Shown: in pieces, positions 345-60,927 of the stretch
Position numbering within the stretch: the stretch's first letter is position 1
Layout: each line of letters begins with the position of its first letter
Assembly (NCBI RefSeq): GCF_029227915.1
Contig: NC_079879.1
Span: 18,786,001 to 18,850,000, forward strand
From: Hydractinia symbiolongicarpus
Taxonomy: Eukaryota; Cnidaria; Hydrozoa; Anthoathecata; Hydractiniidae
Direction of reading: 5' to 3'
Length of the DNA stretch: 64,000 nucleotides
Program-made: the position numbers and the translations under genes
The notes under the pieces: generated by a model
Told to the model about the DNA's origin: nothing
The model's input: the letters and a program-made list of their open reading frames with translations, nothing else
Databases searched by the model: none

Positions 345-2446
345 TTTTCAATAAAAATGGTGCGATCCAAGCATGCATGTAGAGCAATCAACTTCTCCTT
401 AATAAATGTTCTTCTTGTTTCTTCAAACTTCTGACACTTTCCAAACTCGTACTGCATGTCGTCCATATATTTAGGATTATAATTGCTGATGTCTCGTAAA
501 GCTTCTTTATACTTTTCTTTATTGACGTCAATCTCTTGTTCTAATTTTTTAACTTTTGTTTGAAGTTTTGACTTCTGTTCAGGTGTTAATTCAGTAGAGC
601 TTTTTTCTTCTGTTTTTGCAAGTCCCCAAAGATGATTGGCGGAGTGGTAGGCTTTCATACATTTGTTAGCTATATCAAAGAAAAAGAAGAGAAAAAGTGA
701 GGTGTTTTTTTTGCTTTATTTTAACAGATTAAGCAGGCTTTTGTAAAACCATGTGTTACTTCTAGATTTCAAACGGGTTTTTTAGCATGTAAAAGAAAAT
801 TAGTCGTTTGACATAATAAAACGTAAAACATTATAATTCCTGGTGGTCAATTGTCTTGAAGTACTTCTACCAAATATAAGTTATAGTGCCCACCTGGTGC
901 ATACCAAGTGGCCAATTTGATACGTATACCATATGAACAATAAGAACACACCTTGTAGATGTATACAACTAGGCGTTTACCCATAAAATAATCCACTGGA
1001 TCGCTCGTTCTTTTATATATTGCATTTTGTGTTTCCGTAACACGATTTTCTAACTTGCGTGAACTCTGCGCAGAGACAGACAGAGAAGAGAAAAGGCCAT
1101 TAAAGAAATTGCACGTTTGTATATCGCATACAAAAATATGCTGCGTTTCGACGCTACGTCACTGAGAATTCTTTGTAGCAGAGGGAAGTTAAGACGAATC
1201 GAAAAGAAACAAAGTGCACTGAGAACGACTTTGTGTTTTGTAAAAGAAACTTCAATCGGTGTAATTTCCAGACTTTAATTACTTGCAGGTCAAGTATTTT
1301 AAAAAAGGTTGCTACTGACGAATTCAAAATAAATATAAATAGCTCCGTGGCAATCGTGGTTTGTTTTGAGAATATATGAAGTTAATTTGAATTCAATCAT
1401 TGATAAAATTGAATTGGAAAAATAAATATTAAATGAATACCTTCGTTATATTTTATAACCCAAGGCTTTTGAGCTTTAGCAAAAGCTTCTTCGCTTCTTT
1501 TTGCTTCTTTTATTTTTGTGAGCGTTTTTGGGTAAACTTCATTTCTCCATTCTTGAATACTTTTACTTAGACCTTCAAGCCTCGTGTAAACTGATGAATG
1601 GAGATCTGCTAACGATACTCCTTCTTTTAGCCCGTCGATGACAGCTGAAAATGATGTCCCATATTCGAAGGATTTGTTGGAAACTTCGAACCACTTGTTC
1701 TGCCATGCTGAGAAGTAAAAGCAGTTAGAAATAAAAAAAAAACGAAAACAAAAACAAAAACAGAGAGAAAAAAATGACTTACATTTAAGTTTAGTCGCAT
1801 ATAAATTTTCAATTTCAGCCCTTTCGTGGATCATTTTAGACAAATCTTCCAATGTTTTAGAACCATCCTCTATTCGTCGTACAACTTTGCGATAATTATT
1901 TTCAATCCAAAAATTTTCTTCAACAGGTTGAACCTTGGTGTTTCCTTCTTTGATTTCAATCTCTTTAACTAATTTCTCTTGCTCCTGTAAAACTGGATAC
2001 AGTAGAGCGTCGGCCGGCGGTGGAGCAGTAGGTGTGGAAGGTTTGTTTATAGGTTTATCGCGTTCATGCTCAGCTGAGGTTTCGTCGCTTGAAGGCTCTT
2101 TTACTTTCTCTTGCTCTACAATCTCCTTAGTTGCCTCTGGCATTTCTTCTTCTTTTTTATCGGCTTCTTTTTCCTTTGTTTCTTTCTGCTCCTTATTCAC
2201 TTCTACGTCTTTTTCTTGTTCTGGGTTTTCAGGTTCTATTGCTGGCAAATCTTCTTTCATTTCTTTTTCTTTCGATTCATCATTTTCTTTTTCAGTGTTT
2301 TCTTTTATTTCTTTTACTTTTGAATCATCTGTGGAATCCATTTCTTTGTCACTTAGATCTATATCTGAAATATCTTCAATCGCAACGTCGTCTGCTGAAT
2401 GGTGAAGCGTTTTGTTGTTATCCTGCTGGTCTGTAGATTGTTTCAT
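345..2446 (-). CDS. PACSIN: PACSIN/syndapin F-BAR protein, 5' part (three exons, continues past the window start)
   Basis: Exons on the minus strand: 1783-2446, 1441-1707, 345-669, with GT-AG junctions in matching phase; further exons must lie left of base 1. ATG at 2446 is the first Met after an in-frame stop. From about residue 175 the protein reads as a PACSIN F-BAR domain: FWIENNYRKVVRRIEDG, then KAQKPWVIKY and KAYHSA, then an E/K-rich coiled coil. PACSINs bind and bend plasma membrane and link it to dynamin and actin through a C-terminal SH3 domain, which is not in this window. Oddity: the F-BAR is preceded by about 170 residues rich in Glu, Lys, Asp and Ser. The PACSINs I know start within about 15 residues of the F-BAR. 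The F-BAR call is strong; which PACSIN paralogue is not resolved. Introns at 670-1440 and 1708-1782 hold nothing recognisable. Confidence 0.9.
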
Positions 2447-3063
2447 ATCTCGTGTCGAAAAATGAATAGAAATAAGAATAGCTTTTTCTGTCGTTTTAGT
2501 AAAAATAAATTCATTCGTACAATTTGTTTAACAATTTTATTGATATTCTTATTAATTCATTTTGTAAAAATATTAGTGGTTTTTATACTAATGTTACTTC
2601 GCCGAGAAAAGCAATTGAACTTCTCACCTGGTCACTATATACGAGAGGATATTTTAAGGAATGTTCGTTGCTCAATAAAAACCGCTTTGTGATGTAGCGT
2701 AAGACTGAAGTATTACAACTCAGGGGTCGTGAGACCCTGGGTGACGAGATATGATTGGCAATTTTGTTTTATTTGTATAAGCAAAAAGTCAAATAAAGAA
2801 AAAGTAGTTGAAGAACAAAAAGTTTTATCTTTGATAAAAATAAAATAAACTGCAAATTACTCAATTTTAAGCAAAAAAAATCAATAGATAGCTGGGCTAA
2901 ATTCAGTCAGTAAAATACACATACGTGACTATTTAGACCAATCAGTCAGTTCCCGCCATATTTGTTCAGGATTTGCCGCGAACAAAAATAGTGGTGATCA
3001 CCAGAGATCACAAACAGCATAAAACTCCATATAACTTTACACTAATTCTCACATAAATATAAA
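2447..3063. promoter_or_regulatory. Divergent promoter region between PACSIN and RBBP4
   Basis: 617 bp separate the two start codons. On the plus strand near RBBP4 there is a CCAAT box (2938-2942), an E2F-like TTCCCGCC (2950-2957) and an overlapping YY1-like CGCCATATTT. These sit 107-126 bp before the RBBP4 ATG, where core promoter elements would be expected. An E2F site fits a chromatin assembly gene needed in S phase, but its use is inference. The left half holds only AT-rich sequence and a stray CCCTGGGTGACGAG motif at about 2733. Confidence 0.5.
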
Positions 3064-9055
<5,992 letters not shown>

Positions 9056-9459: not shown

Positions 9460-12400
9460 TTATGCAAAACTTTCTTTGTGGAATATAAAAGAGTTTTCGC
9501 GGTCCTTCGTGACGGTGCAAGCTTCATATAAAGCGTGTGCTAGCGGGTTTGGTCCACAGAAAAACACGCCAATTCTTGTTCTAAAGGAAGAGCAGTAAAC
9601 ATGTTAGCACGGATGTAGTTTAGTTTAAGGGGTTAACTAGAATTATAAACTATTATATTATTAAGAGGGCGCCAGAGGCTGATTACACTTGTTTCAATTT
9701 GATTAGATAAAGAATATAAATTTTAAAATCTTGGACTTGTATATTTGTAGGTTGCCATACTTGTTATAGCTCTGTGCTATTGTTTTTAAGATTTCGTCGA
9801 ATTTAGGTCTTCCGTAATTCAGCCGCTTTTGAAACCATTGCATTCTCTGATCAATCATGGAAGGATCGTCTGTCGTAAGCTTCGAATCACGTGTGACGTA
9901 TAAATGACAGACAAGCATATCTGGCATATTAATCGATTCCAGCTGAAAAAAACATTTAAGATAATTATTCTCGACAATTATACTTAATGAAGTAAAGTCT
10001 ACCGGTAAAAATCTTTGCAGAACTATAAAGTTTATCGCTAAAGACACTTGGGACGAGAATGAGCAAGGAAGTCCTCAAATATACAATAAAACTTAGCAGG
10101 AACCTACGTGTTTCACGGTATCAGACATGAGTTCCAGGAACCATGTAAATTCTTTTATATCTCGACAAACCCACACAAGGTAGATTCTTTTCATCTTAAA
10201 TTTTTTGTTCAAATTTGTTGGGTCTAAATATCTAGAAAGAAGTTTGTTACATTTTATATTTTCTTATATTTTACTACGTTTTCAATAGAAACCCTAGGTA
10301 TACTTGGTCGAAGTGACGGTTGTTCATGTTTGACAAGTACTTAAAGTGGTCACACTTTCTTTAAATAATTCATCACAAAAGCAAATGGTCACACTTACTT
10401 TAAATAATTCAACACACAAGCAAATGGTGTAATTCCAATACCAGCAGCTACACTGACATTAACTGGATACCTGAAGGAATCCTGAAAAAAAGATATTCCA
10501 CACTTCAAAACAAACTCTCCTCCATCTTATGTATTTTAAACTTGAAAGTTGTTTATGTAGGAGTTGATATAACTCGCCAGGACGCTCTGCGGAAATTGTT
10601 ATCATTTTAAATTGGCACAAAAACAGACGAAAAAAATGCAATAGACTTGCTTGAAGATTACCCTTCTTCACAGGATAATTTAAGATTTTTTTACATTGGT
10701 TAGCTTAAAAATCTAATAGTGATTCTGCTTGTTTACTCTCATGAATCGAGAGACTCAGCTCTATATACTTCCCTATTAGTGTTTATCCCCAATCCCATAG
10801 GGCTGTCCAAATATAGAAAGCCTCATAAGTCCTGGGGACGAGGTTGCAAACTCGAGCATGTTTAGGTTTCGACCAAGTAAAAAAAATTGGAAAGTTGGAA
10901 TAATTCAATCATAGGTTTAATTGTTTACCTCATTAGGACTACCGTACGGACCGTCAACTCTAATAATTGGAAGGGCTCCTCTGCAAGCAGACTCCGTCCA
11001 CTCCGCATCAACTTTCATTACACAGCTATCCCCAACTCTCTTAAGCTCGACACCATTCTCCTCGCAACTCTCCAGCAACAATTCTTTTAACAGTTCAGTC
11101 CAGTTACCGGTAACTTTTATATGCACGGAAAATGTGGCGGCATCACCTTCCTTAGCAGTTGGAATCTAAGAAGGAAAACTTAAATATATTATATAGCAAA
11201 TAACACCTATAAATACATTTTGTTATTGAATACGAACGGATCAAAATTTCGAAGGCAATTTGGAACTAAAAATTTCATTTGCGATTTTGCACTAAAAAAT
11301 GCTTAATTTTTTGACTTGAAAATGTCCCAGTACGTTTATTTTTTTAATTAAGTCTAATATCCCGAATAGTTCCTTGCATATGATAAAAAGTAAAGTAAAG
11401 TTCTTCGTAACCACACGGGATAATACAAACTTCGTAGTTTTTAAGTAGAACGGCAATAGTACATTACGAGGTTGACTAACTACATAATTTTTTTATCGTG
11501 TGCCGGTTTTCTTACCTTGCTAAGAGTGAATGCATGCCATTCAAATTCTGCGATATCCGGACATTGGACAAGTATATACTAAAGCATAAAGATAAGAGAC
11601 GTGATTGACATATTTTGGCTTTCGAAATGATTTCTTGTTGCATATAAAAAACAGTCATCGGGTAAAATAGATTGATAAATTTCGTGCCCAGGACCCTGTC
11701 TCTTCACTGTTTCTTCGAAGGTTTAAGAAAGAAATTGGATATAGTAAATACATACATGTCCAGGTTTAGCTTTAAAACCTTTCTTCAACATATGCAACTC
11801 AATCACTCTTCCTTCATGTAGAGTTACCTGGTAAATAGACGGATCAAATCTTCAGCATGATGGACACATTACAAATGGCATATATAGAATGAAAATTTAT
11901 ATACTCTGGTTACCTTAGCAATGGTAACATTGCGGGTTGCTCTGTACCATCGAATTATACGATCAATAATGTACAAGCAAAATGGACCAATCAGCCACTT
12001 CCATGTCTAGATTAAAAGTATTTCATTGGATAATAAATATAAGAACCAGGAAAACACAAAACAAAGTAAAGTATGCAACATAAACTTACTTGTGCGCCAT
12101 TAGGTTCAAACTTAGGAGGTTCACAATGCATGGTTTTGTTCATCCATGTTTTATAATCAAGGCTTTGACATCTGCGCGGATGTTCGTTTAAATTTGATTG
12201 CCATTTTGTTATCCCACTAAAGTAGAAAAAAATATATTTTGATTCCGTGTTACATAGGATCTATATATATATATATATACAAATTAAAGTTTTGTAACTT
12301 ACCCTAGGCCATGGATTCCCACGAGAATTAAGAAACACAAGGATAGATGATGTGTGTACCAGAATATTTCATAATGTTTTCGACGAACTGCTTGAAATGA

Positions 12401-14260
12401 TGTTAAAACCTAAACTCAAAACAAAAAATAGTAAGAAGAAGAAGAAAGAAGAACAAGAACAAGAACAGGAACAAGAACAAGAACAAGAACAAGAACAAGA
12501 ACAAGAACAAGAACAAGAACAAGAACAAGAAGAAGAAGAAGAAGAAGAAGAAGAAGAAGAAGAAGAAGAAGAAGAAGAAGAAGAAGAAGAAGAAGAAGAA
12601 GAAGAAGAAGAAGAAGAAGAAGAAGAAGAAGAAGAAGAAGAAGAAGAAGAACATACCACCGCTGAAAGGACCAACAACATGACAATACCACTCCAACCAG
12701 CAACTGAAAACAAAAAAAGAACAACATTAAATACCAACATTAACAGTCACTTCGCTACTAGTAACGTGCACAAAAAAATGAGTTTTACCTTCAGTTAAGA
12801 AAAACCACAACGTCGTATCCTCTTTCGAATTTTTATTAGGATTTAAGTCTTCCACAACCTTTGTATAATTCATGCGAAATCGCATAACATTTACCAAGTG
12901 AGACAATGAATGTGTAACTAAACAAAGAAATAGTTTGGTTAAACGAGACATAAAGTGAAAAATAACGAGTCTGAGTATCACAAAATAACAAAAAGAATTC
13001 GGTAAAATTATTTACGTACCCCCAAGGACGCATATCGTAAATGCACACATAATGTGAAGTCCCTTCATATGGTTGATCAAACGTCTTGGATTGCTGTGTA
13101 TATACTAAAATTATATCATGTAAAATAAGTGTTTGTTTATTTATTTTAAAAAGTAAGTTAGCTAATTATATATAAAGTTTAAATAAACTACCTTGAGTAT
13201 TTTGGTCCTCACAAATGAATTCACCGTCCGGCACATAGGGATAAGGATCAAAGCACAATTGAAATTTAATGCCATTGCGCATGCTCGAGACAAACATATG
13301 GAATCCTAAAAATAGAAATAAGTTGTTATCAACGAATGGAACAAGGAAGTTGATTCCTAGAAGATTTTGTTTTGTCTTTTGATTTGAATTAGTTAAATTC
13401 ATGCAAAGGGCCTGAATCTGAAAATTTAAGAAACAAAATACTCCATGGAAAATGAACAACAAGACAACTTAGTCATTGTTTAAGACTACACCAGCTGCTT
13501 TTTTTACAGCTCGTTGTGAGTATACATGATGTATAATCTGCATAACGATTTAAAAGCAAAATAATACATCCATAATGGTATACTCATTAACCAACCAATA
13601 TCTTACCTTCAGCAGCATATATAGGTAGTGGTATTTATCCGAATTTCTGTATAGCAGATACGTGTCCGTAAATAGATAGATATTGACGCCAAGCCATACC
13701 GTCTACAAATGAAAAGCATGCCGTGTTTAAATAATTAAGTTTAGAATAACACCTTCGTTTACAGGACTTTACGCGTTCGTTTTTTAAATCATAAACAAAC
13801 GCGTTAGGACCGATTTTTGCGGTACTTTTCCGAGGTCAGGAGGCTGAGTTCAAGGTTGTTGGATTTAAATCCTTAATTTTGTTCATACTCGACTGATACA
13901 TTATTTCTCTAGAAGCTGTGCAGAGGCTGTATAAAATTGACGGATGTAATAAAAAACCTAAAAATTAGCACTCAATTTCAATTTTGTTTTTTTTATGAGA
14001 AACGTTCGCGTCATTTACCTGATGAGTGTAATTACAGTAAGTGGGCAAGCATTCTTAAAAAATAGATTATTTTCCTCATTGTTTTTTGTTTTCTAAGTTG
14101 TTTATAAAAAGTAGAAAAAAGGTTGTCAAACTATATTTCCTGTAAACTTAATATAAAATTCGATAAATAAAAAAAAGCAAAATTTAGAAAAAAATATACT
14201 TACCCAAATAAATATTTTTAAGGCTTGATTTTGTATAAAAGTTCTAATATTTTTGCCCAT
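9460..14260 (-). CDS. NADPH oxidase, NOX family (gp91phox/NOX4-like), complete
   Basis: Sixteen minus-strand exons: 14204-14260, 13607-13702, 13192-13305, 13020-13104, 12789-12917, 12657-12703, 12303-12409, 12090-12216, 11914-12006, 11756-11827, 11516-11578, 10929-11165, 10399-10481, 10108-10231, 9761-9942, 9460-9580; 1737 nt, 578 aa (human NOX4 also 578, NOX2 570). Starts MGKNI. The ferric reductase part has two heme-ligand His pairs at 106/120 and 196/209 (FWYTHH...GIHG). The FAD region has HAFTL. NADPH binding is shown by AAGIGITPFA and FFCGPNPL, ending in an aromatic KESFA. It should pass electrons from NADPH across a membrane to oxygen, giving superoxide or peroxide. There is no EF-hand, so it is not NOX5/DUOX. 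CLSRACA and the length lean to NOX4, but paralogy needs a tree. Two odd points are reported as findings: a repeat-filled intron and a duplicated splice-site segment. Confidence 0.95.
10348..10425. repeat. 39-bp tandem duplication across a NOX exon end
   Basis: Two units, 10348-10386 and 10387-10425, differ at only a few bases (both start GGTCACACTT and end AAGCAAAT). The 10387 unit contains the 3' end of the NOX exon 10399-10481 and its donor. The other unit lies in the intron and has lost the donor. Confidence 0.85.
12434..12651 (+). repeat. GAA / GAACAA microsatellite
   Basis: About 80 bp of GAACAA hexamers (about 12450-12528, with one GGAACA variant) run into about 41 uninterrupted GAA triplets (to about 12651). 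It fills most of the 247-bp NOX intron 12410-12656; on the NOX sense strand it is TTC/TTGTTC. The poly-Glu, poly-Ser, poly-Phe and poly-Leu frames over it are artefacts. Confidence 0.95.
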
Positions 14261-35200: not shown

Positions 35201-38200
35201 CAGACAATTGTTCTGCATATAAGTTATATGGACAAACTTGCGGTGTGTTCTAGATGTGTGAAAATGTAACAATACGCAACTGAAACTTAAAGTTGCACCA
35301 AGGTCATAGGAATGTTTTAAAATCTCAAGTTATCCAGACAAGTGTATACCTATAATGGCATTGAGTTGGAAAAACTATATACAATTTGTGATGTGATCCC
35401 ACAGCAATATCAAAATGTGAAAGCAATAATTATTAAAAAAAGATTATGGAATACACCCAAAAACTAAAAATGTTGAAAGGAATAGTGAGATAAAATGGGA
35501 CAACTAAAAATTCTCTTTCATTTTGAGAACCACAATCGGTTTGCTGAATTTGCATTATTTCTTTTAACAAATAAATTTCAAGCCTTGATGGAATAAAAAA
35601 AAATATTCATATATAATGTAATTTTTTGTTTCTAACTTACTCCATCTCTTGGTAATGCATGTGGTAATGCTTCTGAAGAAAACTCGTTGCCAAAACCGCT
35701 GACATACTAAATCAACAAATCAATACAAGGTAATCAGTTAACAGTCTACATTGGTGTAAAAATATGGAATTGAAAAAATCACAAATCTGTTTTTGCACAT
35801 ATCTAGATTTTATTCTTTTTATGGTCAACTAAGTCTGATTACAAGGTTCTCGATATTCACAACGTAGTAAGAGATAGTAGTTAAAATTTTCAAATGTTTA
35901 CAAAGTTTTAATACACATATCAAGCAAACATATGATGAAAGTCAAAAACGAAGGGTTAAATTGTAAAAATAGTGTAAATGTCCAATTAAGAGTTCTAGAC
36001 ATTTATTTAACCTCACAATTTTATAGGTTGGTGCTTAAAAATAGATGTTAATCAAGCACTGGGTGCTTGCTGACAATAACTTAATTCTATTCATGCTGTA
36101 GTAGGGGATTTTTTTGAAAATATGCCGAAATGTTGCCACGGCAAACAATTTTTTGGGTTTAGTATATTTTTCATATTTTTTCTTTATAAAAAAAATTAGT
36201 TTTCCCCTAAAGCAAACTGTATTTATTTGCTTTAGGGGACTTCTTGGGAGACAGTATATTAATACATTATTTTTTGTTTGTAACATTAGTACGACTAAAT
36301 ACAAAGCAATTATACAAATCTTATTAGGATTTATTTATTAGGAAAATTTTGATTTAATTTTGAGAACAATATATGGAATCACAGTCCCGATATTTACTTG
36401 CTCGCGCATCTAAGTGAATACGTAATCCCAGATGCGCGCGGAGAAATGGAGGTAAAAATGTAAACAAACCAAGCGGGCACATTACTGTTCTTCCCAGATT
36501 GCGAAAACGGCCTGTTTACAACCAGGACAGCCGGATTATGTATGCATGGTCCGATTATGTCTTTTTTGCACTGGTTATGTCGTGGTGACAGGATTATGAA
36601 TGCTGATATATATGGCTGGCCAGGCAGGCTGCACGCATATTTACGGGACGAATTTATTTGTGTGCATGCGCTGAATCACACTCGTGAAAACTAAACTTTT
36701 TAAAAATGGTAACCATAGCTACGCCGAGCAAGGGAAAGACAATAGATTGCAACGCTTCGTTGATTATAAGTTTTTAAATAGTTTATAGTATGCGCGGTTT
36801 TTTACATTGAGAATTTTTCTGAAGAGGAAGGAGCGATGTAGCCAGAGGAATAAGTAAGTTATAAAAAAGTTTATTGTTTTCTCCAGTATTTGACGTGGGA
36901 CTTCGTCCCCTTCCAAAACATTAAAATTGGTAGTGGGTGTAGTAAAATTGTAATATCTTTTTAACTAAAGTTTTCTGTGGGAAAGACTCTTAGATTTAGC
37001 TTATCAACACCATCCTGATGGTAAGTTTAGTAAATTAAAAACCATTTCACTTTTTTTTGTGGTGTTTTTATTATCACAAAGTCGAAGGAAAAAGGCACCT
37101 TCCACACCACGGTGAGTCAGCCTAGCTATTCAATGAACATCCAATAAAAATATTTACATTATATATACATGATATACACATTGTGTAGGGATGCTCTATA
37201 AACATCAGCTAGAGCTAGCTAGTAGAGAGTTTTCTCTTTTTTATTTCAGGAACCATCCCTTGTCCTACGGGGTTACATCGCAAATAATGCTCCTTTGTCA
37301 TTAAAAGTAGACGATTTGTGTCCGGTTTTACTGCATGGTATAGCCGTGCAATGCCATTGAATTCAGCATGGATGCTTTCTGCACCTTGTTCTCCATAGAA
37401 CCCTAAACCTGTACCCCAAGCAGAAACAAAGTTTACGGCATGATCCTCAAGTAGATGTAACTTTGGAGTGATCGATTGAAGGGGAAATATATCTCGAAGA
37501 AACACCATCAGTTCTTTTACATTTAGTTCTAAAACAAATGTTTACATGTTATGGCTTTTATATATGTGTGTAATTTGTGCAAAAATGTGACCAATTATTA
37601 GTGTTTATATAATATACCTACCAAAGTTTTCAATTTTGTCTTGGTTCATAACTTCACGTGTATTTAATGTTTTGTGACATTTCGAATAATGTAAAAACAG
37701 CTGTTTAAAGTTTTCAGCATGTAAAATAGCATCTGCATGTATGTCTGATCCATTGTATCCAAGTTTAGTGACAGTGATTGGAAGTATATTGCACATTTGG
37801 ATAAAGTTGTTAGGCTAAATATCAAATGTTGTTGATTACAGTTTCTGTTAATGCACTTTTTTAATAATAAGCAAATATTATTAATTACTATTCAAGCCCT
37901 AGTTCGTTAATGGTAAGTTGCTTATTAAAAAATATACAATATAGAACATTATTTTTTCACCTCAAGCATTTTATTTACATGATTTCCAATAAAGCTACCA
38001 CCATAATAAGCTTGGCGTTTAATGTTGAGCTTGTTGAGGATAGCATCAACTGCTTGCACACAAGGACCATCAGTTTTTTTAAAATTGTTTGCTTCTTTTA
38101 ACTCAAAATATTGAATTAAATTGAGAATATTTTTTTGCATTTGTTTTGAAAAAATTTGTCTTCAAATTTAATATTTATACCTTTTCAATCTTTTTTGCTT

Positions 38201-41200
38201 CAAAGTGTTCAATTCTTAGTTGGTACATGTTTTTAATTTTATCCTCATTGTTTGGGTCTCGCATTACAGCTGCAATGATGGTGTCATTAATCAATTGGAT
38301 CTTTTCATCACAGTCTTCAATATTTTTTTCTAACAAGTCTATTTCTGATGTTAAAGCAATAAACTTGTTAAATTCCTCTTCTTGGGTTTTCTGATTAGCG
38401 TTTGCCATCTTGGTTGCTAACGCGATGTCCACACTGTGGCATTTATCTTCAAACATTGTAAAAAATTTTAAAAAACATCCCAAGGAAATGTGTAGTCCAG
38501 GTAAAGATGCCTAAAATTGAGTAATAAAACTTGACTGATTAAATATTACTTTATTATCACTAATATATATAACTATGACTAAAATGTATTTTAAAACAAT
38601 AGTTTTGGAGGCAACAGTGATCAAAAATATACATACAGTATAGTATAGCATGAATTTTACTTACCTGGTCAATTGGAATGTTAAAAAGTGGGTCATCAAT
38701 TACATTGTAGTTGAATTTTGCATTCTTCAAATTGCCACCAGAGTCTCTAAATTTTGCTAAATTCTCCTTCAAAGTTTCCAGGGTTCTTACAGGAAATTTT
38801 CCACGTATATCCACAGGTTTCTGTATTTCTTCTTTTGTTGCTATGCAATACAAACATGGGTGTCTCCCTGAATATTTTAAATGAAAATAAAATAAAATAG
38901 GATTTTTTATTTTGACTAATACATTTTATATTTTGTACTTTTTTTATATTTTGTACTATTTTTACATACCGTTAGCTCCGGTTATGCCATATGCACTGCT
39001 TAAAAATTTGTAATCACCCGAAAGAAATACTCTTACTCTCTGGTCACTAAATGTAGAATATAGGTATAAATTTTAAACATAGAAGTGTTAACTCTAACAA
39101 AAATGTGATAAATACCAACCCAAATTTGCTGGACTGTAGTCTATCAATTTGTTCTGTAAATCGACTTGTCCCAATTTTCAAATTTGATCTTCTATCCTTG
39201 GCCTCAAAGATACTGAAGACCACAGTGTTTGACTATAAAAATCATAGGAAAATAATGTTTTTTTTTCTAAAAGGTAGTAAAAGTTATCTAGCACTTTCTT
39301 TTACCTTGCTGTTTGGATTCTTTGTGTTACATATTTGAAATGAAAGCTTGAATGAACCACCGCCATGATCTCCTCCTATTTTTACATGTATTTCATTATT
39401 CATGAAGGGGTAATCAGTTAATAGTCCATTCCTAAATAGAAGTAGAATTGCATCTGTCTTAAATTTTTATTTTTATTTATTTTTTAAGTTTTTTTTAACT
39501 ATATGTATCTTTTTCCTAAGAGTAAGTAAACACAAAAACCTACTGTCTTAGACAGTGAAACATTGTTTTGACTTAGGATTCCAGGCTTTCAACATAAACC
39601 CATGCCGCACTTCTTATTTCAAATTTGCCTTTGTGCCCTTTAACTTCGAATGAGAATGGAGCTAGTTCTGAACGCAATTGATCACCAGTCCATTCCGTAG
39701 CCACTTTTCTTTGTTTTCTCTGTGATGGTATGGATATGTTAAAGGTTGATAACCATCTATATGCAGAATATTATTATTTTTTTAAATGTGCATACTATAT
39801 ACCTTAGGAAAATAAAGTTTGCAGTTTTCTTTTTTGGTAAGAATTTAATTTGACAGATGCTAAATAAAATAAATTTGATGAGCACTAATCCACCAACACT
39901 GCTGACACACTTTCTTTCCTTAAGGTATTAATTTTGCATAAATGCTATTATGATAAATATATAAACAGGTAGATGTATAACACCTTTTTCATAAGAATTA
40001 TACTTTTCATTTGAGTCTCATGATTTTAAAAGTCTTATTTAAAAAGGTGTAACATGTCTATTCTGTCTTTTTTGTGAATTTTCATATATATAATTATTTA
40101 TGTATTAGTACTCAATTTTCAGCCATACCTTGACATTGTTTTTAATTTTGACAAGGGAATACTCAAGTCTGCCTTCATTGCTACAAATTCCTCTGGAGTT
40201 ATACTCTTTGTTGTTATATTGGCTCTCTTGAGTATTTCTACTCTCTCATTTTCCTTCAGACTCTTGACTAATTTGCCAGTTTGTACGCTGAACCCACTTT
40301 CATTTCCACCAGAAGAAAAAAGTAATTGGTTTTTTAAAAACTTGTTCCTTTTTTCTATGGTCCGCTTGCAGACTTCATTACTATTTTTAACCGGTTTCGG
40401 TGTTGAGGTAAACATGTAGGGCTAAAATAAATTTGTTTGAAATCATTAGTTTAATTTTATTTAATTTTTAAAATATCAAGGATATATATGTATATATATA
40501 TAATGTAAAATAATTGGATATGTAAATCAGTTATTTTTGTAAATATATGCATTTTCCATTAACTGAGATTTTAAGATACATACCCTAGGTCCTCCACTTT
40601 TAAATTCTATGCTGTTATTTATATCAGTTGATTGTTTCATTTTATGTTTTAAAACATGCAAGGTGGCATCCTCTATTTCTTTTGGAACAGGAGATGACTC
40701 GTCCAATAAAAATACATCTCTTATTGAATAATTTGCACTTGTATTTGAACTTGTGGATGTGTTGCACGATATATTGTGTAATTTAAGCTCATGTAATTTA
40801 TCCAATGTAAATTTCTCTCCACATTTGTTATCACAGTCAACTTGTAAACTATTTACCATGTGGTTTCGGTGCAAACTTGGTTTTAAATTTGATTGGTTGA
40901 CAAGAGTGATGATGTCATCGCGTTTGCACTTAGGGCATTCACTTTCATCTTGAAAACTTCCTTCAAGATATATAAGGATGCATTCTTTACAAAATGCATG
41001 TTCACATGTGATAACCATTAAAGGTTGTCTCAGAAGATTTCCACAAAGCATGCACAAACAAAACTTGTAATGTGGATTTTTTTCTAAGCCATGGTGACTG
41101 ACAACGGGTGGAATAATGTCATTTAAATTTTTGTCACTAATTTCCTCTAAGGCTTTTCTTGACCATATCTGCTTAAAAGTACTTGGTCGTCCTGTTTTCT

Positions 41201-43086
41201 TCTTTTTTGATAGCCTGCCTCCTTTTTTCATACCTTGAACATTTTCACATACAGAGCAAACTTCTGTATGGGGAGACCAATTTTTAGGTTTCAACTGTGT
41301 TGTTGTATTCCTATTTTCAATATTTTTAAGTGTGTTGTAACACCGAAAGCAAATATATTTGGGATGAATGTTGTCCACATCCTCCTGGATATGAACAAAA
41401 AGTAGTTCTAATTCCTTCTCCAATGTCATTTTCTGTTTTGCAATACCTTTACTTTTAGTTAAAAATTCTCCACAAACTCTACAAAGTTTTGCCAACATGT
41501 TTTCATGGTTTGTGGCGGCCATATTTTTTTCAAAAAGCAGGGTCTGTTTCAAGTCTTTAAATTTTTAGGAAAAAAGTGAAATGCATTCCAAACATAGTTT
41601 TTTGAAGAGCTTAAGGTCTGAACTAAATGCTGTAAAAACCTCTTTGGTAAAAAAACTTTGGTTGTCGAGATATTTAATGATGTAGCTAGGTCATTTTTTG
41701 TGTTTACTTTCGTTTTGTTTTTTTACCGCGTAACTTCAAAACAAAAGCAAGTAAGATGTTTTTTTCGCTTAGTTACGTAACCTGGCCTCACTTCCTTCAA
41801 TTAAAATAGTACATTTCCTTAGTTTGTTGGTTAAATCGCCGTAAAAAGCATCAATTTTGGGATAGGCAATCTGACCAAGAATCGGGCTTTCGCCTCTGAG
41901 GCGCTATATTTAAAAAACAATTTTTCGCGCATGCGCATAATTAAATTCGCTATCCGCGTACCGCTAGAACTAGCGTGGCTGTGATTGGCATTTTCTTCGA
42001 ACTTTTGTGAATTAAAAATTTCCTGGAAGGTAGAACACCCTTAAAAACTAGACATGGCAAAAGAAAAAAGTCTAGACGTAATTCTTAGTATAAAGTGCTC
42101 TTGTAGTAAATACATTTCAACATAATATACTTAGAAGTAACTAAATTTCACGGAACCTAAATTATTCTTTTTGTGGGAGTTAAGTTTGGTGAAAAGATAT
42201 TAAACTTGCGAATCCTAAAATTTAGTATTTGTCACGAAATTTCGTTTTATTTGAGAACAACAACAACTTTGCCACCAGTGATGACGAATGATATAAAAGC
42301 GATCGGCCCGATTATATTTGTTCTAGAAGTCTCGAACAATATTTGACTGTCATACATTAGCTGGCCTTGCCCGATTATGTGCGTTCTATAATAAGTGAGA
42401 AATAATATTAGACTGTTGTATATAAACTGGTCTGCCCTGATTATGTTCCTTTTATATGTGCCAAATAATATTTTTTTGAGTAATAAGCCAGCCCATCCTG
42501 ATTATGTTGCCCTGATTACGTATTTTCTGCCCTGTTCTTAACCGGGGCAAGCTGTCATACTTAATCAGGGCAGCGTTTATTATCCGGGCAGAACATTACC
42601 TCCATTTCTGCGCACGCAGGAAAAACATGGCACTATGATTGAATGTATGGTCATGCACGCTCTTTTGTGTAGGTAAAAAAGCAGGACTTACAAAATGGTT
42701 ATTAATGAATATTAAAGATTTTTAGCATAAGATCCAAGAGGAGTCGGAATTAAATTTTAACTTTATTCTTCTAATTTTTCTTAAAAAATTTCACTTTTTT
42801 AGGCGAATATATTTTTTGGGATAGATTTCTTTGATTATTGTGGTTTGTTGTTGATATTTTCTACCTATAGAAATACTTGTATGAAAAAAAAAACTTTATA
42901 AAAAATATTTCACTCTTTGCTACAAGCCTTCTTATGACACACCTCCCAATACTCCCTTTTGTGTCTTGTGGATTCTTACAGTTTTTCAAAATTCCAATTG
43001 TAGTTTTTGATGCAACGGTCTGAAATTTAAATTGCTGTTTCCCTCACCTTACAATCAGCAAAGGCTACAGACGATAATTCAGACAT
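29215..43086 (-). CDS. HGD: Homogentisate 1,2-dioxygenase, complete
   Basis: Fourteen minus-strand exons: 43048-43086, 35641-35706, 35161-35249, 34942-35047, 33574-33716, 33245-33279, 32797-32876, 32515-32614, 32293-32420, 31899-32003, 31398-31524, 30812-30867, 30497-30619, 29215-29361; 1344 nt, 447 aa (human 445). It reads [52 protein letters not shown] and [10 protein letters not shown]. The Fe(II) ligands are present: His in PPYYHRN, Glu in MSEFMG, His in MTPHGP. The enzyme opens homogentisate to maleylacetoacetate in tyrosine breakdown, in the cytosol. Exon 1 ([13 protein letters not shown]) is the least certain: it was chosen because its frame and phase join to YVSGFGNEF with a GTGAGG donor. 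With it, intron 1 is 7.3 kb and contains the RAG1-like gene on the same strand. Confidence 0.95.
29429..29794. mobile_element. 366-bp MITE-like element in the last HGD intron
   Basis: Ends TAATGCTTCGAATAAACGCC and, reversed, TAATCCTTCGAATAGACGCC (19 of 22 matching over the full repeat). Inside are several copies of GGGGCGTTTATT / GGGGCGTCTATT in both orientations. No coding frame. No clear target duplication. Confidence 0.7.
36203..36239. repeat. 14-bp hairpin TCCCCTAAAGCAAA ... TTTGCTTTAGGGGA
   Basis: A short perfect inverted repeat (36203-36216 with 36226-36239) with a 9-base loop in HGD intron 1, outside the proposed RAG1-like element. Function unknown. Confidence 0.8.
36519..36610 (+). 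repeat. Left subterminal CCGATTATG-type motif cluster
   Basis: Motifs within about 90 bp: AGCCGGATTATG, GTCCGATTATG, ACTGGTTATG, ACAGGATTATG. Related motifs cluster at the other end of the element, so these look like subterminal binding repeats. Confidence 0.6.
37215..41552 (-). CDS. RAG1L: RAG1-like recombinase/transposase, complete 11-exon gene
   Basis: Exons: 40584-41552, 40129-40421, 39600-39756, 39305-39457, 39120-39232, 38970-39046, 38665-38867, 38181-38510, 37961-38101, 37622-37814, 37215-37528; 2943 nt, 980 aa, no stop (vertebrate RAG1 about 1040). Met11 is an alternative start. N-terminal zinc region: C24-x2-C27, HPKYICFRC (63-71), C99-x2-C102. RING C3HC4: C167, C170, C183, H185, C188, C191, C206, C209, then a C2H2-like finger, as in RAG1. 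Core: D503 in KIGGDHGGG (RAG1 D600), D573 in FLSGDY (D708), C592/C595 (C727/C730), H901/H906 with RAG1's five-residue spacing (H937/H942), and E927 in GEQGAESIH (E962). It should cut DNA at element ends by the DDE mechanism. Acceptors for 37961-38101 (TTTTGAG) and 39305-39457 (TTTAAG) are weak; those borders are less sure. Confidence 0.9.
41560..42060 (-). promoter_or_regulatory. Putative RAG1-like promoter
   Basis: About 380 bp upstream of the ATG lies a palindromic NRF1-type GCGCATGCGC (about 41930-41939), and further up a CCAAT box read on the minus strand (ATTGG near 41985). The stretch is more GC-rich than its surroundings. That this is the promoter is inference; transcription could also come from HGD. 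Confidence 0.35.
42300..42595 (+). repeat. Right subterminal motif cluster of the RAG1-like element
   Basis: Contains CCCGATTATA, CCCGATTATG, CCCTGATTATG, TCCTGATTATG and CCCTGATTACG in plus orientation, then TTAATCAGGGCAG and TTATCCGGGCAG in the reverse sense close to the inner terminal repeat. Confidence 0.65.
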
Positions 43087-54911: not shown

Positions 54912-55243
54912 GTGGTGCCAGAGATTAGTTGCTATAGCTCTCGTACTCTGTGCAGGAGACCAGGGTTCGATTCCTCTTGACAGCGATTCAACATGGACGA
55001 GTGAATGTTACAATAGCCCCAGGTTAACCCAAGTCATGTGAGGGAAGGTGGCACACTGTGTGGGCTGTTGGGTGTTGCCGAGAGTTGTCTAGTAAAATGT
55101 GGACCCTAATTGGGTCTGCATAGCTCAAAATGAGCATTAAATACTCTAGGACTCTCCATCTAAGCCATGGCTCCTCCTGGAAATAATAGACAGGGTATAT
55201 CCCTCGATATTTGTGAGGCTAGCCATGTAAAAATATGCACATC
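54912..55243 (+). repeat. tRNA-derived SINE, copy A
   Basis: A tRNA-like head with TCTCGTACTCTGTGCAGGAG and B box GGTTCGATTCC is followed by a body with TAAATACTCTAGG and ACAGGGTATATCCC, ending GCCATGTAAAAATATGCAC. Its body matches copy B at 56412 along its length with many differences, so the two are independent insertions. Confidence 0.7.
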
Positions 55244-55376
55244 ATCTAATTTCCAAGATCCTGTAGCTCAGAGAGCTTTAAACACAAAAAACAGCTTTAT
55301 TATCTCTCCCCTCCTTGTACATAAGTAAGTAAATATTATTTCACACAAGTACTTTTAAGCTATGGCTATAGCTACA

Positions 55377-55551
55377 ATACATGGAATCACATTCCCAATA
55401 TTTACTTGCGCGTGCATCTAAGTGATTACGTAATGCTCGATACGCGTGCAAAAATGGAGGTAAAAATGTAAACAAACCAAGCAGACACTAATGTGTCTGC
55501 TTGGTTTGTTTACACACGCAGGAAAAAACACGGCACTATGATTGAGTGTAT
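55377..55551. mobile_element. 175-bp non-autonomous element matching the RAG1-like element ends (copy 1)
   Basis: Starts ATACATGGAATCACATTCCC and ends CGGCACTATGATTGAGTGTAT, matching 36369-36480 at the left and about 42616-42648 at the right of the RAG1-like element. Between them the internal part is replaced by a 21-bp perfect inverted repeat (55468-55488 and 55493-55513, GTAAACAAACCAAGCAGACA...). TACA lies on both outer sides, a possible 4-bp target duplication. Confidence 0.7.
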
Positions 55552-55662
55552 TACAATAAAAATGATGTTGGATAGGAAAAATATGAAAAATGCTAGGTAA
55601 TGTCCATGTCTCTCAAAATTATCAAAGCAAACAGAAAAACGAACGTATAAAATATGTAGCGT

Positions 55663-55992
55663 GACGCTGTAGTTTAGTGGTTTTCACTCTCGTACTTTGT
55701 GCGGGAGACCAGGGTTCGATTCCTCTTGACAGCGATTCAACATGGACGAGTGAATGTTACAATAGCCCCAGGTTAACCCAAGTCATGTGAGGGAAGGTGG
55801 CACACTGTGTGGGCTGTTGGGTGTTGCCGAGAGTTGTCTAGTAAAATGTGGACCCTAATTGGGTCTGCATAGCTCAAAATGAGCATTAAATACTCTAGGA
55901 CTCTCCATCTAAGCCATGGCTCCTCCTGGAAATAATAGACAGGGTATATCCCTCGATATTTGTGAGGCTAGCCATGTAAAAATATGCACATC
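55663..55992 (+). repeat. Hybrid SINE at the duplication junction
   Basis: The head up to GTGCGGGAG is type B (as at 56412). From GGGTTCGATTCC onward it is type A (as at 54961). See the finding on recombination. Confidence 0.8.
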
Positions 55993-56125
55993 ATCTAATT
56001 TCCAAGATCCTGTAGCTCAGAGAGCTTTAAACACAAAAAACAGCTTTATTATCTCTCCCCTCCTTGTACATAAGTAAGTAAATATTATTTCACACAAGTA
56101 CTTTTAAGCTATGGCTATAGCTACA

Positions 56126-56300
56126 ATACATGGAATCACATTCCCAATATTTACTTGCGCGTGCATCTAAGTGATTACGTAATGCTCGATACGCGTGCAA
56201 AAATGGAGGTAAAAATGTAAACAAACCAAGCAGACACTAATGTGTCTGCTTGGTTTGTTTACACACGCAGGAAAAAACACGGCACTATGATTGAGTGTAT
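56126..56300. mobile_element. 175-bp non-autonomous element (copy 2, from the tandem duplication)
   Basis: Identical to 55377-55551 and exactly 749 bp away, so it arose by duplication, not a second insertion. Confidence 0.7.
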
Positions 56301-56411
56301 TACAATAAAAATGATGTTGGATAGGAAAAATATGAAAAATGCTAGGTAATGTCCATGTCTCTCAAAATTATCAAAGCAAACAGAAAAACGAACGTATAAA
56401 ATATGTAGCGT

Positions 56412-56693
56412 GACGCTGTAGTTTAGTGGTTTTCACTCTCGTACTTTGTGCGGGAGACCAAGGTTCGATTTCCCCCTTGACGGCAATTGGGGAGATGTTG
56501 CACTGGTGGGCCGTTAGATGTTGCAGGGAGTTGTCTGGGCAGAGTGCTGACCCTAATTTAGTTTGATCAGTGCAGGACAGAGAGAGCATTAAATACCCCA
56601 GGATTCCCCATCAAAGCCTGGCCTCTCCTAGAAATAATAGACAGGGTATATCCCTTGATATTTGTTAGGCTAGCCATGTAAAATATGCACATC
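56412..56693 (+). repeat. tRNA-derived SINE, copy B
   Basis: Head GACGCTGTAGTTTAGTGG (A box) and AAGGTTCGATTTCCC (B box), body with TAAATACCCCAGG and ACAGGGTATATCCC, end GCCATGTAAAATATGCACATC, followed by a CTATCTAT-type simple tail. Confidence 0.75.
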
Positions 56694-59640: not shown

Positions 59641-60150
59641 TGTTAACAATATGTCAGTCTACATAATAGTTACAAACATTAATGACTCCTCTTACAACTG
59701 TTTCGTATATTCCTGGTCATAAACATTGCTGAAATTTATACTATGTTTGTTCCCCATGTCAACACAACAACCTCTGCACAGTGTACACAGCAAAGGAATT
59801 TTGTTTCCTAATGTTTTGGAATTCTTTTCATAATGTTTATTTTAATATCATCAGCTAAAACTATTAAAGCCTGTGTGCGCGATTGTGATTGTGCATGTGT
59901 TTTATCTTATAGATTGGCCTGATTTCTCAAGAGAAAAATTCAGCCTGCAATCTGTTGCTTTGTTTTAAATAAAATAATTCTTAGAGAATTTTCTTTTAAA
60001 CCTTGAGGAAATTTGCTGAGAAAAACACTATTTTAATTTCACTTAAATTACCTTTGCTACATGTAATATGTACAGTGTTAATCACTGTAAATGCTAGATT
60101 TCTAATATAAAACCATTGCGCTTTTTATTATAGAATATTCACAACATAAG
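59641..60150 (+). promoter_or_regulatory. NUBP2 upstream region
   Basis: A likely 3' splice site TTTTTATTATAG at about 60134 precedes the ATG by 17 bases, so the transcript may have an upstream non-coding exon or a trans-spliced leader. No core promoter was identified. Confidence 0.35.
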
Positions 60151-60927
60151 ATGACTGAGAACTTGAAATCTATTAAGCATGTGTTTTTAATTTTGTCTGG
60201 CAAAGGAGGAGTTGGTAAAAGTACATTTGCTGTACAGTTTGCTCAAGGCTTGGTGAAGCAGGGAAAGAAAGTTGGCATCCTGGATGTAGATTTGTGTGGT
60301 CCAAGTATACCCCACATGCTAAAACTAAAAGGAAAGGATATTCACCAGTGCACAGAAGGTTGGGTGCCAGTGTACACAGACAGCAGTCAGAATTTAGCAG
60401 TGATGTCTATTGCTTTTTTACTGAAGAACGAGAATGATGCAGTTGTTTGGCGAGGTCCAAAAAAGAATGCTATGATCAAGCAGTTTTTATCTGATGTTTA
60501 CTGGAAAGATGTAGAATATTTAGTAATTGACACCCCACCTGGTACTTCAGACGAACACATTTCAACAGTGGAAGCCTTGCAAGCATTACATCCAGACGGA
60601 GCTATACTGATAACTACTCCGCAAAATGTTGCTACTGCTGATGTAAAAAGGGAGTTGACATTTTGCCGTAAAACTTCTATGCCTGTATTGGGTATAGTTG
60701 AAAATATGAGTGGTTATGTTTGTCCGTCTTGTAAAGAATGTTCAAATATATTTTCAAGTGGTGGTGGCGAAGAGCTAGCAAAACATGCTGGTGTTACTTA
60801 TTTAGGAAACATACCTTTTGATCCTTTGTTAGCAAGCGCTCTTGATGAAGGATCCAACATGATGGATTCGGAGGATTCTCCAACAACAAAAGCAATTAAT
60901 CAAATTATTAATTTAGTTACATCCTAG
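60151..60927 (+). CDS. NUBP2: Cytosolic Fe-S cluster assembly factor NUBP2
   Basis: A single uninterrupted exon of 258 aa, near the size of human NUBP2 (271). P-loop GKGGVGKS at residues 17-24 (deviant Walker A of the Mrp/MinD ATPases), DVDLCGPSIP at 45-54, DTPPGTSDEH at 127-136, and the Fe-S-binding pair CPSC at C191/C194 in GYVCPSCKEC. NUBP2 works with NUBP1 (Cfd1/Nbp35 in yeast) as the scaffold that builds 4Fe-4S clusters for cytosolic and nuclear proteins. It lacks the N-terminal four-Cys extension of NUBP1, which settles the paralogue. An intronless CDS is unusual among its many-exon neighbours. It could be a retrocopy, but the frame is intact and no poly(A) tail was seen. Confidence 0.96.
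   Translation: MTENLKSIKHVFLILSGKGGVGKSTFAVQFAQGLVKQGKKVGILDVDLCGPSIPHMLKLKGKDIHQCTEGWVPVYTDSSQNLAVMSIAFLLKNENDAVVWRGPKKNAMIKQFLSDVYWKDVEYLVIDTPPGTSDEHISTVEALQALHPDGAILITTPQNVATADVKRELTFCRKTSMPVLGIVENMSGYVCPSCKECSNIFSSGGGEELAKHAGVTYLGNIPFDPLLASALDEGSNMMDSEDSPTTKAINQIINLVTS

Follow-up and report, generated by a model that had tools for sequence, protein, structure and literature searches.

A recently mobile DNA transposon of Hydractinia symbiolongicarpus, probably of the Chapaev group, with a RAG1-type N-terminal region

The element, its gene and its sister copies

The window analysed here is a 64,000-nucleotide stretch of the Hydractinia symbiolongicarpus genome (contig NC_079879.1, 18,786,001 to 18,850,000), and coordinates below are positions in it. 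On its minus strand lies a DNA transposon enclosing one predicted transposase gene, whose product combines RAG1-type zinc modules, a RING finger and a D-D-E catalytic core. The 11 exons proposed in a preliminary description of this DNA were reproduced by hand splicing, and all splicing of the gene is predicted. The features are as follows.

36632–41977, minus strand: DNA transposon of 5,346 bp with CACGC...GCGTG termini (gene strand), its limits being where homology to the five sister copies begins and ends
36628–36631: 4-bp target-site duplication lying 3′ of the gene (plus-strand GCTG), identical to 41978–41981
41978–41981: 4-bp target-site duplication lying 5′ of the gene (plus-strand GCTG), identical to 36628–36631
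41522–37215, minus strand: predicted transposase gene of 11 exons with GT..AG introns
40584–41522, minus strand: exon 1, whole N-terminal region (residues 1–313), an open frame from the ATG at 41522 to the donor GTATGT
40129–40421, minus strand: exon 2
39544–39756, minus strand: exon 3 in its preferred form (alternative end 39594), from comparison of junctions
39305–39431, minus strand: exon 4 in its preferred form (alternative start 39457), with the first catalytic D at 39370–39368
39120–39232, minus strand: exon 5
38970–39046, minus strand: exon 6, with the second catalytic D at 39015–39013
38665–38867, minus strand: exon 7, with the C-x2-C zinc pair
38181–38510, minus strand: exon 8, with the LH motif
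37961–38101, minus strand: exon 9, whose start is the least certain (6 residues shorter than in Hydra homologue P0003)
37622–37814, minus strand: exon 10
37215–37528, minus strand: exon 11, with the H-x4-H zinc pair and the catalytic E at 37379–37377
41169–41522, minus strand: RAG1-type N-terminal zinc region (Chapa-like), about residues 1–118, from RAG1_imp_bd, structure 21wb and profile comparison with RAG1
40917–41060, minus strand: RING finger, about residues 155–202

A scan of the Hydractinia genome (480.9 Mb, 76 contigs) for DUF1280, the Pfam domain found in the core, gave at least 77 matches, six of which, the window copy included, carried the signature of the window's exon 4; the family thus has at least six closely related copies. 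The five sisters (L009–L013) were compared together with their flanks. In all five copies that retain both ends, the window copy among them, the element ended in CACGC...GCGTG and was bordered by a perfect 4-bp duplication, different each time (on the gene strand, CAGC in the window, TTTC in L010, GAGG in L011, ACGC in L012 and CATG in L013). L010–L013 were 99.96–100% identical to one another, and the five sisters were 99.5–99.6% identical to the window copy over the part shared by L009. When the two 70-bp ends were aligned as inverted repeats, the score of 33 was equalled by 2 of 2,000 random pairs from the window. Ends first placed at 36366 and 42648, at repeats inside the window, gave a weak alignment (its score equalled by 78 of 2,000 random pairs) and were overruled by the sister copies. 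The transposon has been mobile recently, and its copy in the window is decaying.

Outside the gene the element has 583 bp (36632–37214) and 455 bp (41523–41977). Six open frames in and around these segments had no kelch, PHD or RAG2 match; they gave only two hits, which at E about 0.2 fell below the cut-off. The element is too small for a RAG2-like gene, so its transposase would act without a RAG2-like partner.

Domains, predicted fold and reading frame

Pfam, homologue and early solved-structure searches used the 972-codon product of the alternative exon 3/4 junction as query. Pfam placed RAG1_imp_bd at residues 42–109 (E 1e-9), around the cysteine region HPKYICFRC that the preliminary description had pointed out and that begins at residue 53, and a RING finger at residues 157–199 (E 1e-7), about 10 residues from the C167–C209 first given for it; both are encoded in exon 1. 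The core region matched DUF1280 (residues 380–550, E 1e-13), and RAG1 core models did not match the protein at E up to 5. The profile search that the preliminary description had named as its own refuting test thus speaks, by sequence, against a RAG1-like core. Among solved structures the protein matched RING fingers and the N-terminal half of RAG1 (21wb, E 1.8e-4 with exon 1 alone), while neither the RAG1 nor the Transib core was matched by it or by a profile of 11 homologues, mostly of the core (A3).

The catalytic residues and zinc pairs first reported (D503, D573, E927, C592/C595 and H901/H906, in 980 codons) are numbered exactly under the preferred junction (39544/39431), and they align with homologues. 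Among 15 aligned proteins, all those covering a given site kept the D-D-E triad and the C(2)C, LH and H(4)H motifs, the first D being identical in 15 of 15. In the predicted structure of a homologue, RAG1 was the best solved match to the core, which suggests that the core resembles RAG1 in fold. The earlier picture of one gene with RAG1 N-terminal modules and core therefore holds in part: a single predicted gene has the zinc modules, the RING and a complete DDE core whose zinc pairs are of RAG1 style, but the profile searches speak against a RAG1-like core sequence.

The homologue search gave twenty proteins, the best covering 96% of the query at 41% identity with like domains; the named relatives came from Hydra vulgaris, Ephydatia, Branchiostoma, Acanthaster and Diadema. 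P0020, a weak and unrelated-looking match, was removed. Among the other 19, DUF1280 matched 18, RING five and RAG1_imp_bd four, and many predictions began late when aligned with the window protein; the precomputed domains of the 20 included none of the PF12940 and PF260xx/PF261xx models present in RAG1. Five uncharacterized Hydra vulgaris proteins (P0003, P0004 and P0006–P0008) share the core of the window protein, to which they are 39–47% identical, P0003 and P0004 also having a RING and P0004 the N-terminal zinc region, but they belong to separate families and several are predicted without the N-terminus.

To judge from the motifs and the homologue's predicted fold, the transposase would bring together the two inverted-repeat ends (CACGC...GCGTG) after binding them, cut through its D-D-E triad with the aid of the C2/H2 zinc site, and insert through a 4-bp staggered cut. 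The directly observed basis for this scheme is the 4-bp duplications and the termini. By analogy with RAG1 (PMC4411706), the zinc region and RING may serve protein contacts, perhaps with ubiquitin-ligase activity.

The reading frame turns on the junction between exons 3 and 4. The preferred form (39756–39544 joined to 39431–39305) gives 980 codons, described earlier as free of stops; it contains one.

39573–39575, minus strand: in-frame TAA at codon 472 in preferred exon 3, absent from all five sister copies

We chose this junction because homologues keep eight residues that the alternative (39756–39594 joined to 39457–39305) loses. The alternative reads through 972 stop-free codons with consistent phases and is open in all six copies, and a transcript that took it would bypass the stop and leave the window copy functional. 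We consider this rather unlikely: besides lacking the eight residues, the alternative product scored 22 bits lower against the family profile (851 versus 873) and its donor scored −0.2 versus 5.0 for the preferred one (nine other introns, 6.1 to 11.6), although its acceptor (4.0 versus 2.8; others, 9.4 to 14.2) slightly favours it. The stop is found in the window copy alone, none of the sisters having an internal stop under either junction. Eleven codons distinguish the window copy from L010, eight of them altering or ending the protein. The copy is probably disabled by the premature stop, and not the intact gene first described. That it might instead be a host gene domesticated from a transposon, as its several exons and nearly complete frame could suggest, seems extremely improbable in view of the complete transposon ends and duplication around it, the five dispersed sisters, the probable stop and the eight of 11 codon differences that change or end the protein.

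Group assignment and distances to RAG1

PMC4079192 lists as Chapaev hallmarks a 3- to 4-bp duplication, termini of CAC/GTG, and the motifs C(2)C, LH and H(4)H; the Hydractinia family has 4-bp duplications and CACGC...GCGTG termini in all five both-ended copies and, gaps aside, the three motifs throughout the 15 aligned proteins. C(2)C and H(4)H alone cannot separate Chapaev from RAG1 and Transib, because C(2)C and H(3–4)H are common to the latter two (PMC12730594). In two Chapaev subgroups, according to Kapitonov and Koonin 2015 (PMC4411706), a RAG1-like zinc domain (Chapa) is followed by a RING, as in RAG1, and by a DDE transposase core only distantly related to other Transibs. The order is the same in the Hydractinia protein, where Chapa was judged from RAG1_imp_bd and the RAG1 N-terminal profile. 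This architecture has been in print for Chapaev since 2015; among PMC4411706, PMC7204232, PMC8355894, PMC4079192, PMC12730594 and PMC12220107, it was seen in the first alone. Set against the published descriptions of Chapaev, the Hydractinia family stands out for near-identical copies open in frame; literature searches found no paper on it.

A genuine cnidarian RAG1-like gene or transposon of the RAGL type, ancestor-like to RAG1, would also carry a RAG1-type N-terminal zinc region, a D-D-E triad with zinc pairs and a core whose best solved fold match is RAG1. We regard it as very unlikely, as RAG1-core profiles did not match the window protein and were not among the precomputed domains of its homologues, comparison of core profiles gave RAG1 a probability of 6–7%, and the Cx2Cx3GHx4C tail described for invertebrate RAG1L (PMC7204232) was absent from the window protein and all 19 homologues; the duplications, moreover, are of 4 bp, not of 5 bp as in TransibSU (PMC4411706), and the element is without a RAG2-like gene. 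On structural alignment the core was 14–15% identical to RAG1 and RAGL (vertebrate RAG1; amphioxus BbRAGL, 6b40). The jellyfish Aurelia has a RAG1L–RAG2L pair whose RAG1L is described as without a RING (PMC7204232), which the Hydractinia protein has. Transib (HzTransib, 6pqx) is likewise set apart, being described as without the RAG1 N-terminal region (PMC4411706, PMC7204232) and making 5-bp duplications. N-RAG-TP of Aplysia is, like the Hydractinia family, a mobile element with RAG1 N-terminal-like sequence, but consists entirely of such sequence as PMC8355894 describes it.

We read the element, with a probability of roughly 85%, as a DNA transposon that was mobile recently and probably belongs to the Chapaev group, with RAG1-type zinc modules, a RING and a DDE core of predicted RAG1 fold, the window copy being likely disabled. 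Several points weigh against this reading. The Chapaev name is based on hallmarks rather than on phylogenetic placement; the fold was predicted for a homologue 41% identical to the window protein, its first 113 residues at low confidence; the preferred exon 3/4 junction combines a weak acceptor with a donor that scores lower than those of the nine other introns; and L009 has its 5′ end only, the 3′ end being lost.

The origin of RAG1's N-terminal half is disputed in print: one view has it fused to the core already in an ancestor that Chapaev and Transib shared (PMC4411706), the other has it joined through recombination between transposons (PMC8355894). This family offers an N-terminus and a core in one gene, with a measurable mismatch in their distances to RAG1. 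Against profiles of 14 vertebrate RAG1 sequences, the N-terminal region matched at 99.8% probability (E 4e-29, 227 columns; 99.3% and E 1.4e-20 without the RING) and the core at 6–7% (E 0.005–0.007), a contrast weakened by the less sensitive core alignment (effective number of sequences, Neff, 1.5 versus 3.3). The RAG1 N-terminal profile matched 22 of 26 fetched DUF1280 loci and the core profile none. This contrast is weakened in turn: the N-terminus is a single exon whereas the core is divided among several, the core profile is the less diverse one, and several of these loci represent a single family.

In RAG1 and Chapaev alike, the core evolves more slowly than the N-terminus. Human RAG1 is 31–47% identical to shark and bony fish sequences in the N-terminus and 76–81% in the core (53% and 87% against frog), and ten Chapaev pairs were 21–47% and 30–63% identical, respectively. 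We expressed the maximum-likelihood distance from cnidarian Chapaev to RAG1 relative to that from cnidarian to sponge Chapaev, the yardstick being one protein, P0012, of inferred sponge origin. This ratio was 2.02 for the core (bootstrap 1.76–2.29) and 0.92 for the N-terminus (0.82–1.05; 0.97 without Cys/His columns), where distances of about 3 to 5, near saturation, pull it towards 1. The two ratios showed no overlap in 1,600 pairs of bootstrap replicates (40 each). With a larger N-terminal alignment the ratio rose to 1.11–1.12, and only two of 12 Chapaev sequences were nearer to RAG1 than to the sponge Chapaev. In the larger tree RAG1 stood beside P0012 (75% support), which, the tree being unrooted, decides nothing. 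In a simulation that let the N-terminus diverge together with the core, using the smallest rate ratio that Chapaev showed (about 1.7), N-terminal identity was 0.16 (95%, 0.196; largest of 200, 0.24) versus an observed mean of 0.243 (without Cys/His, 0.112 versus 0.192), although optimized alignment inflates identity and rate ratios may change.

Although limited by saturation and by the single yardstick, these sequence comparisons speak for an N-terminal module that was exchanged rather than inherited together with the core, but do not prove it. Tentatively, and at somewhat less than even odds, RAG1 may be a mosaic that obtained its N-terminal zinc/RING half from a Chapaev-type transposon, by acquisition or by exchange, once the Chapaev core had separated from that of Transib/RAG; the Hydractinia family would then be a still-mobile relative of the donor. 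With its near-identical open copies and clean duplications, this family allows direct tests of both the history and the chemistry of a transposase that has the predicted RAG1 fold and a RAG1-type N-terminus but no RAG2.

Other DUF1280 families and neighbouring sequence

Other DUF1280 families of the same genome (L001–L008, L015–L018 and L022–L026) also have the RAG1-type N-terminal region, the N-terminal exons of L001 and L023 seeming to lack a RING. At least 13 DUF1280 matches score exactly 61.1 bits, a sign that a further family may have spread recently. L014 (3743–6832) holds a DUF1280-type core in a single intronless open frame of 1,030 codons.

Sequences flanking the transposon (36366–36627 and 41982–42648) match short copies at 55374–55551 and 56123–56300 (87% over 115 bp, 92% over 37 bp). 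Repeats of CCNGATTATGT are clustered in these flanks, with eight of the 14 matches in the window, where 3.6 would be expected in all. The outer flank sequence and the CCNGATTATGT repeats are probably another repeat, into which the transposon inserted. A 749-bp tandem duplication (55243–55700 and 55992–56449, identical at 458 of 458 bases in this stretch) either arose very recently or is an artefact of assembly; both units include a short relative of the outer repeat, bordered by TACA on either side.

Elsewhere in the window we noted the following.

1400–2527, minus strand: exons of an F-BAR (FCH) protein
5339–5407, minus strand: tRNA-like match (32.2 bits, cut-off 29)
7366–7758, plus strand: exons of a THOC3-like WD40 protein
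12298–12798: simple repeat with open frames of (EQ)n/(E)n, and serine runs on the other strand
60142–60927, plus strand: open frame without introns, NUBPL/ParA P-loop family (Pfam E 4.5e-95)

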